Shown: positions 7,356-53,681 of the stretch, in pieces
How positions within the stretch are numbered: position 1 is the first letter of the stretch
How the letters are laid out: every line of letters begins with the position of its first letter
Assembly (NCBI GenBank): GCA_949300485.1
Contig: CASGEL010000001.1
Coordinates: 1-64,000, forward strand
Direction: 5' to 3'
DNA from: an uncultured bacterium
GTDB lineage: Bacteria > Cyanobacteriota > Vampirovibrionia > Gastranaerophilales > Gastranaerophilaceae
DNA: 64,000 nucleotides
The notes under the pieces: generated by a model
What the model saw: only the letters and a program-made list of their open reading frames with translations
Told to the model about the DNA's origin: nothing
Databases searched by the model: none
Program-made: the position numbers and the translations under genes

Positions 7356-8471
7356 GTGAATATGGACACCCTTAAAAGCTTTGAAAAAGATTTGAATAAA
7401 TGTTCAAAATGCGGCCTATGCGAACCTGTATGTCCGCTGTTTAAAATTGACCCAAACGAATGTGTTGCCAGCAAGGGAAAATTCATAATGCTTCATGGCG
7501 TCACAAAAGGAGATTTAAAGCTTTCAAAAAATATAAACCGATATATTGATATGTGCCTAAGATGCGGAAAATGTAATAATTTCTGCCCAAGTGATATTGA
7601 TGTATGCAAAATTTTAAACTGCGCAAAATATGAATATATGAAAGACAAATTTTTCGGTAAAATACTATTTTTTTTGGAAAGCAAATTTATTTTTTCAAAC
7701 GTTATCAAAACTATTTCTCATCTGACAAATATGTTCCGACCAAAGCTTAAAACAACAAATTTAAAAAACGCAACCAAAGTATTATATTTTAAAGGTTGTG
7801 TAAATCAGATGCTTCCAAATACTGATAAATATATTAGCAAAATTTTTAAAAATCAGCCGATTAATATTATTGAACCTGATTTTGATTGCTGTGGACTTCC
7901 GTTTCTGTCAGACGGAAATATAAAAAGGTTTATTGAAACAGCAGAATATAATACTGAACTTATTAACAACACCACTTATGACTATATTATTACCGACTGC
8001 GCAAGCTGTGACCATACACTAAATGAATATCATAAATATATTGCAAACGAATCCGTAAAAAATATAAAACCTGAAAAAACAATAAACTGGGGAGATTTAA
8101 TAGCCGTTCAGGGTATCCATTTCAAGTATAACAAACCGATTAAAGTAACTTTCCACAAACCTTGCCACCTTAAAAACGATGCTTTTTTCAAACAAATATT
8201 AAAAAATTGCCAAAATGTTGAATATGTCGAAATGGAAAATTATGACGATTGCTGCGGACTTGCCGGAAGTTTTGCAATAAAAAACACAAAAATGTCAGTT
8301 GAAATTGCAAAACAAAAAGCTATTAATATAAAAAAAACAAATGCCGATTACGTTATTACAACTTGCCCCGGATGCATTATCGGGTTAAAATACGGATTGT
8401 TTTTAACAAAAGGAAAAACAAAAACGTTAAGCCTTTTGGAATTTTTAGCAAAAGCTGATATAATTGAATAG
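7356..8471 (+). CDS. (Fe-S)-binding oxidoreductase subunit, GlcF/LutA/HdrD-like
   Basis: 371 residues. Two 4Fe-4S ferredoxin motifs open the protein (CSKCGLCEPVCP near residue 16 and CLRCGKCNNFCP near 67). Two CCG domains follow: FKGCVNQ...DCCGLPF...CASCDH and FHKPCHLK...DCCGLAGSF...CPGC. This is the architecture of the iron-sulfur subunit of glycolate oxidase (GlcF), lactate utilisation proteins and heterodisulfide reductase D. These act as electron-transfer subunits beside an FAD dehydrogenase. No GlcD-like partner is present here; the only neighbour is a small TonB-C-like secreted protein 10 bases downstream. The substrate cannot be assigned. Confidence 0.88.
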   Translation: MNMDTLKSFEKDLNKCSKCGLCEPVCPLFKIDPNECVASKGKFIMLHGVTKGDLKLSKNINRYIDMCLRCGKCNNFCPSDIDVCKILNCAKYEYMKDKFFGKILFFLESKFIFSNVIKTISHLTNMFRPKLKTTNLKNATKVLYFKGCVNQMLPNTDKYISKIFKNQPINIIEPDFDCCGLPFLSDGNIKRFIETAEYNTELINNTTYDYIITDCASCDHTLNEYHKYIANESVKNIKPEKTINWGDLIAVQGIHFKYNKPIKVTFHKPCHLKNDAFFKQILKNCQNVEYVEMENYDDCCGLAGSFAIKNTKMSVEIAKQKAINIKKTNADYVITTCPGCIIGLKYGLFLTKGKTKTLSLLEFLAKADIIE

Positions 8472-8481
8472 GGAGAAATTT

Positions 8482-8952
8482 ATGAAAAAATATATTATTA
8501 TAGCATCTATATTATTGCTAACATCAGGGATCGCACAATCAGCATCAGTATTTGATTACAGCGGCAGCCAGGCTCAAAATCAGATGTCAAGGCCTTTTTT
8601 ACGATTTGAATTTGATAAACCTATTGAAAACAACGAAGCTGATACTGCAAACAATACATATAACTGGGGACGGTATATCAGAAACCTTCAGCATAAATTA
8701 AATTCACAAATTCTAGTCAAAAAGAATAGCCCTATTGCTCTTGAATTTGATATTGCAAAAGATGGCAATATATCCAATTTACAAATTACAACAAGTTCAG
8801 AAAAACCTGAATTTGATAAATATATAAAAGCTTCAATAGAAACATGTGCTCCTTTTGCTCAGTTACCTTCAAAATATAAAGGTGACAGAATAAAAGTTAA
8901 GCTCAATATTTATAATGGTGCAATAAGCACGTCAGTTGTAGAATATCAATAA
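8482..8952 (+). CDS. secreted TonB C-terminal-like domain protein
   Basis: 156 residues from ATG 8482, preceded by GGGAGA. A signal peptide (MKKYIIIASILLLTSGIAQSA) is followed by a short linker and a domain resembling the TonB C-terminus (residues ~75-150: IALEFDIAKDGNISNLQITTS ... FAQLPSKYKGDRIKVKLNI). Unlike true TonB it has no Pro-rich spanner and no membrane anchor if the signal is cleaved. It is co-directional with the Fe-S protein and converges with the efflux permease gene, the stops three bases apart. Function unknown; a partner of an envelope energy-transducing system is possible. Confidence 0.65.
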   Translation: MKKYIIIASILLLTSGIAQSASVFDYSGSQAQNQMSRPFLRFEFDKPIENNEADTANNTYNWGRYIRNLQHKLNSQILVKKNSPIALEFDIAKDGNISNLQITTSSEKPEFDKYIKASIETCAPFAQLPSKYKGDRIKVKLNIYNGAISTSVVEYQ

Positions 8953-44121: not shown

Positions 44122-44664
44122 TTACAAAATAAAATTATTATAACTTTCGTCTATTTTATCTTGTTCAATTCCTATATATCTTAATGTTATGGATGGGGAA
44201 GAATGGTTAAAGATTTTTTGTAGCATAACAACATCTTTAAACTTTTTATAATGATGATAACCAAATGTTTTTCTCAATGTATGAGTCCCGATATCCCCCT
44301 CTATTCCAACCTTTTTACAAGCATCATGAATAATATAATATGCAGTTGTTCTGTTCATACGATGTCCCCAAACAGACTGAAACAGTGGCTCTTCCGAATG
44401 TTTATTTTGAGTAAACTCATCCAGCATTGGTTTTAATTTTGCATTTATTGGAAACTTTTTAAATTTGCCTGTTTTTTTCTCTGTAATTTGAATATATTGT
44501 TTATTTTTAACATCTTTGACATTAAGAGCTAGTATATCTGAAATGCGTAATCCACAATTCGTACCAATAGTAAACATTAACAGATTTCTATAACTTTGTT
44601 TGGCCAAAATTTTCTCAACTTTTCTGATATCACTTAATTTTCTCAAAGGTTCAACTATCCCCAT
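44122..44664 (-). CDS. single-domain tyrosine recombinase (FimB-like architecture)
   Basis: 180 residues from ATG 44664, with AAAGGAGGG 13 bases upstream; a longer frame from 44778 is rejected. The catalytic domain is complete: GLRISDILAL (Arg I), KKTGKFKKF (beta-hairpin Lys), THTLRKTFGYHHYK (H-x-x-R), FNHSSPSIT (His III) and LRYIGI (Tyr). The N-terminal core-binding SAM domain of XerC or phage integrases is absent, as in FimB/FimE-type invertases. It lies upstream of the glycan operon on the same strand. An inversion role is possible, but no paired invertible repeats were seen. Confidence 0.85.
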   Translation of the reverse strand: MGIVEPLRKLSDIRKVEKILAKQSYRNLLMFTIGTNCGLRISDILALNVKDVKNKQYIQITEKKTGKFKKFPINAKLKPMLDEFTQNKHSEEPLFQSVWGHRMNRTTAYYIIHDACKKVGIEGDIGTHTLRKTFGYHHYKKFKDVVMLQKIFNHSSPSITLRYIGIEQDKIDESYNNFIL

Positions 44665-44791
44665 TTTTTTTATGTCTCCCTCCTTTTTAAATAAAAATCT
44701 ATACATATTTAAATACAATTTTAAAATTTTGTGCAAATTTGTATTCCAAATTATTCTACATGGATCCAGGTAATACAATTAGTTCACATAT

Positions 44792-48010: not shown

Positions 48011-48895
48011 CTATCCGCCTATATGAATTTTTATTCTTTCATTATCATTAAAATCATTTGGTGTTGATTTTTGAGTTGTATTAGATAACAACATTACAGC
48101 TTTTACTTGAGCCTTTTCCCTTTTACTATTCGCAGGGAATACTGTTATATCTTGATATTCATAACTTTTTATTAAATTTGCAACTAAATCTTTATCATGC
48201 TGCGAAATAACCATAGATTTCACTGTAATATTATCTATTCGACCATCTGCATATACATTAAATTGATAATACAACCAAGTACCCGCACTATACTGATCAA
48301 GTTCCCTAATTTGTATACTATCATCTAAAATTTTATTAACAAAGTTACTTTGCCAAGTATTCCAGTCAATGTCTTTATATATATAACGATCTCTTTGCTT
48401 AACTCTTTTTAATGGCCTATTATCCTTACCTAATGGCTGCGTTGAAACATTTTGAGCATTATTTAACATTGTATCAATATGTGAATCATCTAAATTATTA
48501 AAATTCAAATTATCAGAATCATTAACATTTAAATTTTGATTTGCAAAATCAGCATTCGAATTATCAAACGAATTAGACTGACTTGAAAAACCTGAATTGT
48601 TATTAAACTGCATTTCAGTATTATTCAATGTTCCTGAATTTTCAACATTTAAGCTTGATGAATTTAACGCAATATCAGTATTATTTGCATTTATTTGGGC
48701 ATTATTAATTTTTGAATCATTTAAATTAATTTTTACAGTTTCATTATTTACTAGTTCAGTATTTTCATGAGTTATTTCAAAATTTTGATTAGATATCTTC
48801 ACTCGCCTGCCAATATTTGTATCATCCAATGACAAGACAAACACTGTCACAAAAACAAATACAATTAGCCCTATTATCCAAGCGATTTTATTCAT
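48011..48895 (-). CDS. TonB-C-like envelope protein with Asn-rich linker
   Basis: 294 residues. One N-terminal TM helix (IAWIIGLIVFVFVTVFVLSL), a ~120-residue Asn/Ser-rich linker with a repetitive x-N-x-S/N-x pattern (NNTEMQFNNNSGF, NDSDNLNFNNLDDS), then a TonB-C/TolA-like domain (~205-280: YYQFNVYADGRIDNITVKSM, YQDITVFPANSKREKAQVKA). This matches TonB topology, except that the usual Pro-rich spanner is replaced by Asn-rich sequence. Third gene of a minus-strand trio with an FHA/polytopic protein and a VWA protein; the upstream stop is 6 bases away. Confidence 0.7.
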   Translation of the reverse strand: MNKIAWIIGLIVFVFVTVFVLSLDDTNIGRRVKISNQNFEITHENTELVNNETVKINLNDSKINNAQINANNTDIALNSSSLNVENSGTLNNTEMQFNNNSGFSSQSNSFDNSNADFANQNLNVNDSDNLNFNNLDDSHIDTMLNNAQNVSTQPLGKDNRPLKRVKQRDRYIYKDIDWNTWQSNFVNKILDDSIQIRELDQYSAGTWLYYQFNVYADGRIDNITVKSMVISQHDKDLVANLIKSYEYQDITVFPANSKREKAQVKAVMLLSNTTQKSTPNDFNDNERIKIHIGG

Positions 48896-48901
48896 ATAAC
48901 A

Positions 48902-50488
48902 TTAATCCAAAGTATCTAATAATTCACTGTAATTATTGATTTTGTACATTGTTGAACTCAAAAGATGAGTTTCTGCAATCAACAATGCTGTAGGAACAAG
49001 TGCTGTTACAAAGCTCAAAAACATACCTTGTATATCACCGCCAATTTCCGTAATAAAATATGATACGTTCATTGTAAATTCAATCAAAATAATAAAACAG
49101 GCAATATACATTACTATATTTTTTTCTCGTTCTAAACTTCTCATTGAATCCAGACCCAAAACAGTAACCCCATGACTACCGTAATCATGAAATCCATCAA
49201 ATTTTATAATTTCAGAACCTTTAATTTGTTTTCCTATAGTAAAGGCTCTTACAAATGAGAAAAATGCAAATATAATCAAGAATGTTGCCAATACAAGAAA
49301 TATAGGACTGAATCTTAGACCTGAGATACGAACCCAGTTTGCAGCTTCAGGGAAACAGCTGGCAAGAGTATTTGAAACTCCATATGCCAAAAATGGAGAT
49401 GTTAATAAACCTACAAACACTTCAACAATCATTCTCAACTGATGATTTACCAAACTGCTTTTTACTGCATTTATCCTATTCGGAGTTAATTTATTTATAA
49501 ATGTATGAATCAATGCTCTATAACTTTTCATTACAGATTCAAAATCTTCTCTGTATTCACAATTAGTTAACTGTTGTTTATAATTTTTAATTTGGAATTT
49601 AAAATAACCGCTTGCAATAGTTACTGTAGCTAATGCTCCTACAAATAATAATGAAATAAAAAATGATGCGGCTAAAAATCCAGGAATAGATTTATAATAA
49701 AACAAATTCATTACATATACTATAAACAAAAATAAAGAAGCTATTCCGATAATAAATCTCTGTGCGACATCAGAATCTCCTAATCTTTTTGTTTGATTAA
49801 ATTCAAGCAGTGAATAAATACCATGCTTCAATATTAAACATACTGCACCGACAACTGCAGTAACACATATTAAAAATCCTACATTTGTTGTCAGATTTAA
49901 TACGGATGATGAATTATCGATTTTAAATCCTAATAAAAAATTTGTAATACCGAATGATGAAACGACTGATAGTATAAAGATTGAAAGATTTAAAATAAAA
50001 TTAGTAATATTTGCAGAACGAATATTACCTTTCAATTCTAATATTCTAAAGCCTATTTCTTTAATAATTGCAATTCTATGTTTTTCTACATCACCCTCAA
50101 AAAGGTCATCTTTATTTTTAGCCTGAGTAGAATTGTCGGCCACAACATTTTTATCTGCAATTTTAGGTTGCTGGACAGAATTAATCGCAACCGGTACTGC
50201 CATTTCTACTGAAACTTCTATAGGAATAGAATTTTTAACAGTAGTCAAAGTAAAATTAGGGGTAACTAAAATTTTAGAAAAGACCTTTCCGTTAAAAAGA
50301 ATCTCTCTATCATTTGAAACATTAACCAAAATATAATTATTATATTTTGGCATGTACATTAATTTTAAAACAGATTCCGCCGGCAAATCTCCTATTATAA
50401 AATCACTGCCGGAATTACTGCCTATAACAATATTAGTTTGATTTTCAAACTTTCTAAAGCTATCTCCATACTTGATAGTTACTTTCAT
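48902..50488 (-). CDS. FHA-like domain plus polytopic membrane protein
   Basis: 528 residues. Residues ~1-85 look like an FHA fold (NIVIGSNSGSDFIIGDLPAES, NNYILVNVSNDREILFNGK), the usual phosphothreonine reader. After a linker come about eight TM helices (e.g. FILNLSIFILSVVSSFGI, FIIGIASLFLFIVYVMNLFY, IFLVLATFLIIFAFFSFV). The last two (YIACFIILIEFTMNVSYFI and MFLSFVTALVPTALLIAETHLL) faintly resemble MotA/ExbB channels. It lies between a VWA protein (6 bases) and a TonB-C-like protein (6 bases), so the three are probably one complex. No named family known to me. Confidence 0.65.
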   Translation of the reverse strand: MKVTIKYGDSFRKFENQTNIVIGSNSGSDFIIGDLPAESVLKLMYMPKYNNYILVNVSNDREILFNGKVFSKILVTPNFTLTTVKNSIPIEVSVEMAVPVAINSVQQPKIADKNVVADNSTQAKNKDDLFEGDVEKHRIAIIKEIGFRILELKGNIRSANITNFILNLSIFILSVVSSFGITNFLLGFKIDNSSSVLNLTTNVGFLICVTAVVGAVCLILKHGIYSLLEFNQTKRLGDSDVAQRFIIGIASLFLFIVYVMNLFYYKSIPGFLAASFFISLLFVGALATVTIASGYFKFQIKNYKQQLTNCEYREDFESVMKSYRALIHTFINKLTPNRINAVKSSLVNHQLRMIVEVFVGLLTSPFLAYGVSNTLASCFPEAANWVRISGLRFSPIFLVLATFLIIFAFFSFVRAFTIGKQIKGSEIIKFDGFHDYGSHGVTVLGLDSMRSLEREKNIVMYIACFIILIEFTMNVSYFITEIGGDIQGMFLSFVTALVPTALLIAETHLLSSTMYKINNYSELLDTLD

Positions 50489-50494
50489 ATAATA

Positions 50495-51160
50495 TTACCT
50501 TCCGATTGCATTTAAAAAACGTCTTAAAGATTTGTTAGATGTTGTTTCACTTCCAATAATCAGTTTATTCTCGCCCAATACTGGGGTCAATCTTTCTTTA
50601 ACCAAATCCAACTTTTCAGGTGCGGCAAATAAAAACATCATAGCAAACTCATTTGCTTGATTACGAACATTTGCAACCTCTTCTGGCAAAGTGTCCCAAT
50701 CTATTTGTTTATCTACATCTCCTTCATTTTCCAAATCACCAATAACTACAACCGCAGGAACATACCCCTCTTTATACATATTAAGAGCATGATTGAAAGC
50801 TTTTTTAAGAGCCAAACCGTATGCAGTTCCATATTCTTTAGAATCATACTGGGTGAATTTCTCAATAGATTTTCTAACCTCTGAACTGGATTGAGGAGAA
50901 CCTTCATATATTAAATATGAATCCTCTGAAACTCTCAACATTTTTACATGATCTTCGGGATCAAGCATAGAACATAACTGCCTTATTATCATTTTTTGGT
51001 TTTGTAAGTTTTTTTGATTAGATGCAGAAGCATCAACAACAAAAATTACAGCAGCCTTATGAAAATCATCGACTTTAAGCTGAGACAAACCAAAAATTCC
51101 CAAACATAAAAATATAAAAAATATTATTCCAAATAAAACTATCTTCAATGTATTACTCAT
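50495..51160 (-). CDS. membrane-anchored VWA-domain protein
   Basis: 221 residues from MSNTLKIVLFG (a start at 51199 adding 13 residues is possible; neither has a strong site). An N-terminal TM helix (IVLFGIIFFIFLCLGIFGL) precedes a von Willebrand A domain with an intact MIDAS (FVVDASASNQKN, D-x-S-x-S), a Thr in EYGTAYGLALKKAF and VVVIGDLENEGD. Such proteins bind partners through a metal ion. First gene of the trio with the FHA/polytopic and TonB-C-like proteins; divergent from the FeoAB gene. Confidence 0.8.
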   Translation of the reverse strand: MSNTLKIVLFGIIFFIFLCLGIFGLSQLKVDDFHKAAVIFVVDASASNQKNLQNQKMIIRQLCSMLDPEDHVKMLRVSEDSYLIYEGSPQSSSEVRKSIEKFTQYDSKEYGTAYGLALKKAFNHALNMYKEGYVPAVVVIGDLENEGDVDKQIDWDTLPEEVANVRNQANEFAMMFLFAAPEKLDLVKERLTPVLGENKLIIGSETTSNKSLRRFLNAIGR

Positions 51161-51305
51161 ATCAAAAAAATAGCACAAAAAAGGTAAAAGTGTAATCATA
51201 TAAATGAAGTATGAAGAATTATATACATTTTATAGAAAAAATACAGAAAAATCCATTTGACAAACATACACACATAGAATACCATAATGATGGAGCGAGA
51301 AGTGA

Positions 51306-53681
51306 ATGCCGGAAAAAGAAATAATTACAACTCTTGATAAACTAAAAATTGGTAAAGATGCAATTATAAAATCAATTAATTGCGAGAATAAAGCATTAAG
51401 ACAACACATCCTTGAAATGGGACTTACACCTAATACAGAAGTAACCCTCATAAAAACTGCCCCCTTAGGAGATCCTCTAGAATTAAGAGTAAGAAATTAT
51501 GAACTGACACTGCGAAAGGAAGATGCATCTAAAATTATAATAAAAGACATTCACGATGCACATAATTGCCCAAGAAAAAATATGAAAAACGAAGAATCCG
51601 AACATTCCCAAAAAGGAGAATCAAGAACTTACAAAACAAGACCCGGAAACAAAACTCCTGAAAAAAATAAAATTTCACTTGCACTTGCAGGAAATCAAAA
51701 TTGTGGTAAAACAACATTATTTAATAAACTGACAGGTTCCAACCAACATGTAGGGAATTTCCCAGGAGTCACAATAGATAAAAAAGATGGTATAATAAAA
51801 CATCATAAAGACGTAACAATAACAGATCTGCCGGGGATATACTCACTTTCACCATATAGCAGCGAAGAAGTCGTAACAAGAAACTTCATATTAAATGAAA
51901 AACCTGATGCAATTATTAATATTATTGATGCGACAAATATTGAAAGAAACCTATTATTAACACTTCAATTGATAGAGCTTGATATACCAATGGTAATTGC
52001 TCTAAACATGATGGATGAAATAAATAAAAACGGTGGAAGTATAGACATTAACGGAATGGAAAATACATTAGGAATTCCTGTTATTCCAATATCCGCTTCT
52101 AAAAATCAAGGACTTGAAGAACTTGTTGAACATGCAATTAATGTTGCCAAATACCAAGAACACCCAGGACGACTTGATTTTTGCGATGCAGAAGATCCTG
52201 AAACAAGTGCCGTACATCGATGTATCCATTCAATTATACACCTTATAGAAGACCATGCCATCAAAAAAAATATTCCGGTGAGATTTGCTTCAACAAAAAT
52301 TGCAGAAGGTGATAATAAAATAATCTCAGAATTAAATCTTGACCCAAATGAGATAGAAACTTGCAATCAGATAATATCAGAGATGGAAAAAGAATGCGGA
52401 TTAGAAAAAGAGTCTGCTATTATCAATATGAGATTTTATTTCATAGAAAAGCTTTGTCAACAATATGTATTAAAACCTGAAGAGTCAGAAGAATATAAAA
52501 TTTCTGCCAACATAGATAAAATATTGACAGGGAAATACACTGCAATTCTAGCATTTTTATTCATTATGACTATAATATTTTACATTACCTTTGGACATAT
52601 CGGAATATTTCTATCCGAAGCAATGGAAACAGGTATAACATTTATCACAAACTATATTGATAATTTATTAACTAATTACGGTTTAAATCCTGTTGTTCAA
52701 TCTCTTATTATAGATGGGGTATTTGCTGGTGTAGGAAGCGTTTTGAGCTTTTTACCAGTAATTGTTATTCTATTCTTCTTTCTATCCATTTTGGAAGATA
52801 CTGGGTACATGGCTAGAGTTGCTTTTGTTATGGACAAACTCTTAAGAAAAATCGGATTATCTGGCAGAAGTTTTGTACCTATGCTTATAGGATTTGGATG
52901 TTCAGTGCCTGCAATAATGTCAACTCGAACACTGCCATCTGAACGCGACAGGAAAATGACCATTTTTTTAACACCATTTATGAGTTGTTCTGCCAAATTA
53001 CCAATTTATGCACTGTTTACTGCCGCATTTTTTAAAGACTATCAAATATTTGTAATTTTAGGTCTTTATTTAATTGGCATAATTACAGGAATAATCTTTG
53101 CATATATTTTAAAATTATTTATTTTTAAGGGAGAACCTGTACCTTTTGTGATGGAACTACCTAATTACAGACTGCCAAGTCCCATTAATGTTTATCGATT
53201 AATATATACAAAATCAAAAGGATTTATTACAAAAGCGTTTACCATAATATTTTGGGCAACAATTATTATATGGTTTTTACAAACATTCGATTCAAGATTA
53301 AATCTGGTTTCAGATTCCTCACAAAGCCTGCTGGCTATTTTAGGAAATATTATTACCCCTATTTTTAAACCGCTTGGTATCACTGACTGGAGAATTTCAA
53401 CTGCATTTATAACAGGTTTTATGGCAAAAGAAAGTGTTGTTAGTACTTTAACAGTATTAAGCGGTGGAGATGTTTCAAAACTCCCAGAAATGTTTACAAA
53501 ACTGACAGCTTTTGTATTCTTAGTATTTTCTTTGTTATACACGCCTTGCGTAGCAACTATCGCTACGGTAAAAAGAGAACTTGGGAAAACATATGCACTT
53601 TTAGTCATACTAATTCAATGCTCAATTGCCTGGATTGTTGCTCTTCTAACATATCTCTTTGGAAGTGTATTAATTACATAA
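51306..53681 (+). CDS. feoB: ferrous iron transporter FeoB with fused FeoA domain
   Basis: 791 residues. Residues 1-82 are a FeoA SH3-like domain (LKIGKDAIIKSIN, HILEMGLTPNTEVTLIKTAPLGDPLELRV). A charged linker (~83-120) leads to the FeoB G domain: P-loop AGNQNCGKTT (G129-T136), DLPG (174-177) and NMMD (234-237). About eight TM helices follow with the two Gate domains (GSVLSFLPVIVILFFFLSILED, MLIGFGCSVPAIMSTR). It imports Fe(II) across the inner membrane. FeoA and FeoB are usually separate genes. Stops one base from a convergent FG-motif gene. Confidence 0.97.
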   Translation: MPEKEIITTLDKLKIGKDAIIKSINCENKALRQHILEMGLTPNTEVTLIKTAPLGDPLELRVRNYELTLRKEDASKIIIKDIHDAHNCPRKNMKNEESEHSQKGESRTYKTRPGNKTPEKNKISLALAGNQNCGKTTLFNKLTGSNQHVGNFPGVTIDKKDGIIKHHKDVTITDLPGIYSLSPYSSEEVVTRNFILNEKPDAIINIIDATNIERNLLLTLQLIELDIPMVIALNMMDEINKNGGSIDINGMENTLGIPVIPISASKNQGLEELVEHAINVAKYQEHPGRLDFCDAEDPETSAVHRCIHSIIHLIEDHAIKKNIPVRFASTKIAEGDNKIISELNLDPNEIETCNQIISEMEKECGLEKESAIINMRFYFIEKLCQQYVLKPEESEEYKISANIDKILTGKYTAILAFLFIMTIIFYITFGHIGIFLSEAMETGITFITNYIDNLLTNYGLNPVVQSLIIDGVFAGVGSVLSFLPVIVILFFFLSILEDTGYMARVAFVMDKLLRKIGLSGRSFVPMLIGFGCSVPAIMSTRTLPSERDRKMTIFLTPFMSCSAKLPIYALFTAAFFKDYQIFVILGLYLIGIITGIIFAYILKLFIFKGEPVPFVMELPNYRLPSPINVYRLIYTKSKGFITKAFTIIFWATIIIWFLQTFDSRLNLVSDSSQSLLAILGNIITPIFKPLGITDWRISTAFITGFMAKESVVSTLTVLSGGDVSKLPEMFTKLTAFVFLVFSLLYTPCVATIATVKRELGKTYALLVILIQCSIAWIVALLTYLFGSVLIT

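Follow-up and report, generated by a model that had tools for sequence, protein, structure and literature searches.

What kind of envelope complex, familiar or new, is encoded by three closely packed genes on the minus strand of a Gastranaerophilaceae genome? Members of this family are common uncultured gut bacteria, relatives of the cyanobacteria, for which there is no genetics. The genes, here called VWA, MID and TON, lie in a window (the whole stretch of DNA analysed) of 64,000 nucleotides. A preliminary description had reported them as separated by gaps of 6 bases each, and the open reading frames were found exactly where it had placed them. A longer in-frame ATG is present upstream of VWA at 51199; the start at 51160 is favoured by homologues. 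The genes and the parts of their products are as follows:

50495..51160, minus strand: VWA gene, 221 aa; N-terminal transmembrane (TM) anchor and VWA domain, predicted periplasmic
about 51145-51086, minus strand: N-terminal TM anchor of VWA
about 51055-50498, minus strand: VWA domain with intact MIDAS
48902..50488, minus strand: MID gene, 528 aa; FHA domain (predicted cytosolic) and 8-TM membrane domain; AlphaFold pLDDT 83.7
50198..50488, minus strand: FHA-fold domain of MID, residues 1-97 (AlphaFold with Foldseek/VIA)
48956..50002, minus strand: membrane domain of MID, residues 163-511, two apparently homologous 4-TM halves
48011..48895, minus strand: TON gene, 294 aa; TM anchor, disordered spanner and TonB/TolA-like C-terminal domain (AlphaFold, Foldseek/VIA)
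48827..48889, minus strand: TM helix of TON, residues 3-23, without the TonB/TolA Ser/His motif
48395..48814, minus strand: predicted disordered spanner of TON, residues 28-167, 25% Asn; pLDDT below 50 for 28-67 and for most of 76-124
48014..48394, minus strand: TonB/TolA-like C-terminal domain of TON, residues 168-294, core pLDDT over 90 (AlphaFold)

No Pfam or NCBIfam family matched MID or TON above the cut-off, none of the three proteins matched a PADLOC defence model, and sequence searches returned no solved structure for MID or for VWA. Together these resources assign the trio to no known Tol, Ton, Mot or defence family, in keeping with the earlier remark that no such system was recognisable; an identity as Zorya or another known defence system was rejected on the negative PADLOC result. 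No description of the operon was found in the literature, coverage of which was incomplete. Purifying selection acts on all three genes, with dN/dS against the nearest relative of 0.03 (VWA), 0.04 (MID) and 0.07 (TON) and of 0.03-0.30 across near relatives; these are rough values, dS being near or above saturation. Divergent from the trio is a gene for a FeoA-FeoB fusion, a ferrous iron transporter (51306-53681, plus strand), which is not conserved as a neighbour. A tyrosine recombinase (44122-44778, minus strand; PF00589, 8e-26) is encoded 3 kb downstream, beyond lineage-specific genes.

The first protein is, as had been proposed, a membrane-anchored VWA protein with an intact metal site. Its domain matches PF00092 (E=1.3e-7), and each position of the MIDAS (D43-x-S45-x-S47, T112 and D142) is kept in 33-36 of 37 aligned homologues. 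A weak match to TssR_VWA (0.0028) was also recorded. Comparable proteins have been described by Williams-Jones et al. 2025 (PMC12204202), who reported families of vWA force transducers, encoded beside tolQ homologues, from Proteobacteria, PVC, Bacteroidetes and Rhodothermaota. Motor-coupled transducers are defined there by an SHLS motif or by a proton-binding Asp in the transpore helix. The trio resembles these systems, for which force transmission was proposed, in having an inner-membrane-anchored periplasmic vWA protein beside a polytopic membrane protein. It differs from them in that its VWA lacks both SHLS and the TM Asp (an acid or His occurs in the TM core of none of the 37 homologues), in that MID is not TolQ-like by sequence, and in having a separate TonB-like rod.

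That rod is TON, for which a TonB-like topology had been suggested and which indeed combines a TM helix, predicted disorder and a C-terminal domain whose structural matches rank TonB and TolA first. The first 11 Foldseek matches are all TonB-family C-terminal domains (best E=3.8e-3), among them those of H. pylori TonB, FusB, HasB, P. aeruginosa TonB and E. coli TonB, while VIA gave Z scores of 6.6 for TolA III and 6.1 for TonB. A TonB/TolA fold is supported for the predicted structure, the scores being modest and the family consistency of the match list strong. The Asn-rich spanner of the preliminary description holds for this TON and not as a defining trait: Asn-richness is confined to the genus type of the window (mean 21% N), and spanners from other genera have 8% N and 7% P. 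Neither His nor D/E was found in the TM core of any of 50 TON proteins. Elsewhere in the window lies an orphan gene (8464-8952, plus strand) whose 162-aa product resembles a signal peptide at its N-terminus, ends in a TonB_2 domain (PF13103, 2.4e-7) and has no spanner, and the genome contains two further TonB-domain matches.

The middle protein, MID, had been read as an FHA-like domain on about eight TM helices, and this architecture is borne out by an FHA fold over residues 1-97, followed by eight hydrophobic TM peaks. The best Foldseek match of the FHA domain is FHA-1 of Rv1747 (TMt 0.75, probability 1.00), and VIA gave a Z score of 11.5; the FHA domain of EssC (5fwh) is among the VIA matches (Z 9.5). 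Regulation by phosphorylation, which the preliminary description had drawn from this domain, did not survive alignment of 54 homologues, in which the phosphothreonine contacts (G-R, S-x-x-H and N-G) are not conserved. The Arg position is occupied by S, T or N in 50 of the 54 and by Arg in none, the Ser is kept in one and the His in none, and the Asn is unconserved. Because these residues are missing or unconserved, the FHA domain of MID probably serves for docking independently of phosphorylation. Scaffolds of secretion machines are known to contain FHA folds that lack phospho-binding residues. MID resembles the FHA membrane scaffolds (EssC of the T7SS and YscD-like proteins) in carrying such a domain at the N-terminus of a membrane protein, and differs from them in having eight TM helices without an ATPase or ring-forming domain, with no secretion-system genes nearby. 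In a sister genus, most of whose sampled genomes are without the trio, a homologue of the N-terminus of MID exists as a separate FHA protein of 99 aa. Its gene adjoins a TolC/EmrAB-type efflux locus at each of four loci:

L159:342-641, plus strand: stand-alone FHA protein
L160:5387-5686, minus strand: stand-alone FHA protein
L161:5506-5805, plus strand: stand-alone FHA protein
L162:5298-5597, plus strand: stand-alone FHA protein

The membrane domain of MID appears to be built from a repeat. TM1-4 and TM5-8 align colinearly (hhalign E=4.7e-4, probability 33%; 1.4% or less for reversed and block-shuffled controls), which suggests, from sequence, that a 4-TM unit was duplicated within the protein. 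Conservation is concentrated in the second half, at T363, P365, S372 and T374 of TM5, E470 and N474 of TM7, and P499, T500, E506 and T507 of TM8; by column counts all of these except T374 are invariant or near-invariant, and the two intramembrane acids are kept in 54/54 (E470) and 53/54 (E506) homologues. The loop between TM5 and TM6, (C)FPEAAxWVRISGLRFSP, is near-invariant and lies on the periplasmic side. A faint resemblance of the last helices to the MotA/ExbB channel had been noted, and by eye TAPFLAYGVS in TM5 and TALxPTAL in TM8 do recall TM2 and TM3 of ExbB. Profiles give this no support: hhalign against 32 ExbB proteins of the phylum, with MID whole and with each TM hairpin, returned probabilities of 0.5% or less, and homology to MotA/ExbB/TolQ was rejected at the level of sequence. 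The MotA_ExbB family is absent among the matches listed for the 54 MID members, four of which have a weak match to TssO (0.0023). No credible PDB fold match to the 8-TM domain was obtained, with the FHA part filling the match lists so that a known fold could be masked.

MID homologues were found in 106 of 240 genomes of the class and 129 of 386 of the phylum, though in a few of the 129 the match is weak and partial or is to an FHA domain by itself. Among the matches listed all are, by record title, in Gastranaerophilaceae, none of the 386 phylum genomes having a match beyond this family, and tblastn found none in 72,556 plasmids. One match, in a 5-kb contig labelled Muribaculaceae, looks like mis-binning. 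A neighbourhood survey across Vampirovibrionia had been proposed beforehand as a check, and gene order proved to be conserved: 68 of 78 loci have the order VWA-MID-TON, five have c4-MID-TON without the anchored VWA, three have VWA-MID-c3, and two are broken or at a contig end (c3 and c4 are described below). Median gaps between the open reading frames are 9 and 5 bases, taking the longest-frame starts. The three VWA-MID-c3 loci (L096, L097 and L098), which lack TON and belong to one genus, lie immediately downstream of genes for TrkA-TrkH-like potassium uptake. In profile searches, all 25 Gastranaerophilaceae genomes examined that lack a full-length MID had neither VWA nor TON, and three of three MID-positive control genomes had both. 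Across 68 trios the pairwise distances of VWA, MID and TON are correlated (rho 0.75-0.82). Given this all-or-none presence, the kept order, the correlated distances and the purifying selection, the three genes form a single functional unit that is acquired or lost as a whole.

Outside the genus type of the window the usual unit is larger, c4-VWA-MID-TON-c3. The product of the upstream gene, c4, is secreted and contains a VirB10/TrbI-like domain (PF03743, E=1.9e-4, below the cut-off), and a paralogue of c4 has a weak TraM match; c4 relatives occur in 146 of 146 class genomes, with or without the trio. The product of the downstream gene, c3, starts with a zinc ribbon (C4, C7, C18 and C20 invariant) and continues through a TM helix and a spanner to a TonB_2 domain (PF13103, 1.3e-8 at locus L096 and 6.6e-4, below the cut-off, at L084). 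Comparison of the TON and c3 profiles gave a weak match over the C-terminal domain (probability 19%, E=0.0012). Neither His nor D/E occurs in the TM core of any of 27 c3 proteins. The genome of the window has no c3 orthologue, only TonB-domain matches, so c3 is dispensable. A further gene often found next to the trio, c6, encodes another VWA protein, this one with an N-terminus of secretion type. The five loci without the anchored VWA (L076, L079, L080, L095 and L100) carry one or two c6 genes instead, which suggests that c6 substitutes for it.

To our knowledge, all energised outer-membrane work (Ton, Tol, gliding and Zorya) runs on 5:2 motors of the MotA/ExbB/TolQ type. As in the Ton and Tol-Pal systems (TonB or TolA with ExbBD or TolQR), TON and c3 each join a TM helix, a disordered spanner and a TonB/TolA-type C-terminal domain. 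Unlike those systems, the trio operon contains no ExbB/TolQ and no ExbD/TolR, the TM helix of TON has no Ser/His motor-binding motif, and the polytopic partner is unrelated, an apparently duplicated protein of eight TM helices that bears an FHA domain. Because neither coupling signature (the SHLS-type His or the ExbD/TolR-type acid) is present and the operon lacks TolQ, TON is unlikely to be driven by ExbBD in the manner known so far, and MID is left as the sole candidate for a hub.

The reading we prefer, with a probability of roughly 45%, is that the genes encode a lineage-specific TonB/TolA-like trans-envelope complex on a non-ExbB hub, with its energisation left as a hypothesis. Against it stand the lack of detectable homology between MID and known motors and the lack of motor-coupling residues in TON, c3 and VWA. 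MID would sit in the inner membrane as the hub, its degenerate FHA domain acting on the cytosolic side in docking or assembly, independently of phosphorylation. TON would be a flexible rod anchored beside MID, crossing the periplasm so that its TonB/TolA domain could grip a partner on the outer membrane or the peptidoglycan side, and VWA a metal-dependent periplasmic adaptor binding the hub, the rod or the target through its MIDAS. In most genera, c3 may add a second TonB-domain rod, with its zinc ribbon inside, and secreted c4 a further periplasmic or outer component. The most likely mode would be mechanical coupling of both membranes, gated or driven via E470, N474, T500 and E506 of MID and not by ExbB/ExbD. 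That VWA, MID and TON bind one another is, from their all-or-none co-inheritance, very likely; that TON contacts a partner in the outer envelope is a reasonable expectation from its modelled fold.

Whether anything moves is the weaker part of the proposal. The proteins may form a passive tether or scaffold, in which MID, TON and VWA would hold the envelope layers together or organise another machine without energised movement. Such a scaffold, which we regard as a serious though somewhat unlikely alternative, is consistent with the lack of ExbB/MotA homology in MID, with the lack of an ExbD-like TM Asp or a TonB-type TM His in all three single-TM families, and with the EssC match of the FHA domain. 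It is opposed by the invariant E470, N474, T500 and T507 within TM helices and by the putatively duplicated 8-TM domain, which exceed the needs of a simple anchor. Invariant intramembrane polar residues occur, however, also in membrane proteins that are not energised, and it is doubtful that MID energises movement, a passive tether fitting almost as well.

Alternatively, TON and c3 could serve as additional TonB-type rods for the one ExbB/ExbD motor that the genome encodes elsewhere, with MID and VWA as modulators. In favour of this, a single MotA_ExbB gene is present in each of 21 sampled Gastranaerophilaceae genomes, with or without MID (in the genome of the window on another contig than the trio), and the C-terminal domain of TON is TonB-like. 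This arrangement is nevertheless improbable, given that Ser-x3-His is present in the TM helix of 13 of 13 canonical TonBs examined as against no TM-core His in TON or c3, and that the trio was never found within an ExbB operon. The canonical TonB-ExbB-ExbD-ExbD operon of the genome (L163:1656-5980, contig C14) is linked to the trio operon in another respect, since VirB10-like homologues precede it as they do the trio in most other genera: two secreted VirB10/TraM-like proteins, relatives of c4, are encoded ahead of the Ton operon in 13 of 13 genomes (L163 and L179-L190). We know of no earlier description of two such genes heading a Ton operon.

A role in envelope sensing, with VWA and TON sensing the periplasm and the FHA domain, together with the zinc ribbon, signalling to cytosolic partners, would suit the cytosolic position of these two modules and the inferred periplasmic topology of VWA, and would need no output enzyme in the operon if the partners were encoded elsewhere; the loss of the phosphothreonine motif and the absence of any conserved kinase, sigma or regulator gene from the trio neighbourhood leave it little chance of being correct. 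That the trio is the core of a T4SS-, T6SS- or T7SS-like secretion or injection platform, as the sub-threshold c4 domain, the weak TssR_VWA and TssO matches and the EssC-like FHA might hint, is highly improbable, since the T6SS sheath VipB/TssC is missing from 30 of 30 family genomes (on which identity as a T6SS was rejected), the operon has no ATPase or pilin gene, and the VirB10-like family is present throughout the class irrespective of the trio.

The complex on a MID hub is accordingly best rated a variant of the TonB/TolA-type trans-envelope system, not categorically new, because its rod belongs to a known kind and its drive is hypothetical. A bolder version, that MID is a new inner-membrane motor or gate, distinct from ExbB, TolQ and MotA, driving TonB/TolA-type rods, is unlikely; if true, this would be the first case of a Ton-like force-transducing system whose energiser evolved independently. 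The known range of trans-envelope machines would be extended by one in which a TonB/TolA rod is combined with an unrelated 8-TM hub, a MIDAS-bearing VWA protein and an FHA domain blind to phosphorylation. For the Gastranaerophilaceae the trio would give a lead on the biology of their envelope, and it may represent a novel means by which bacteria operate their cell surface.
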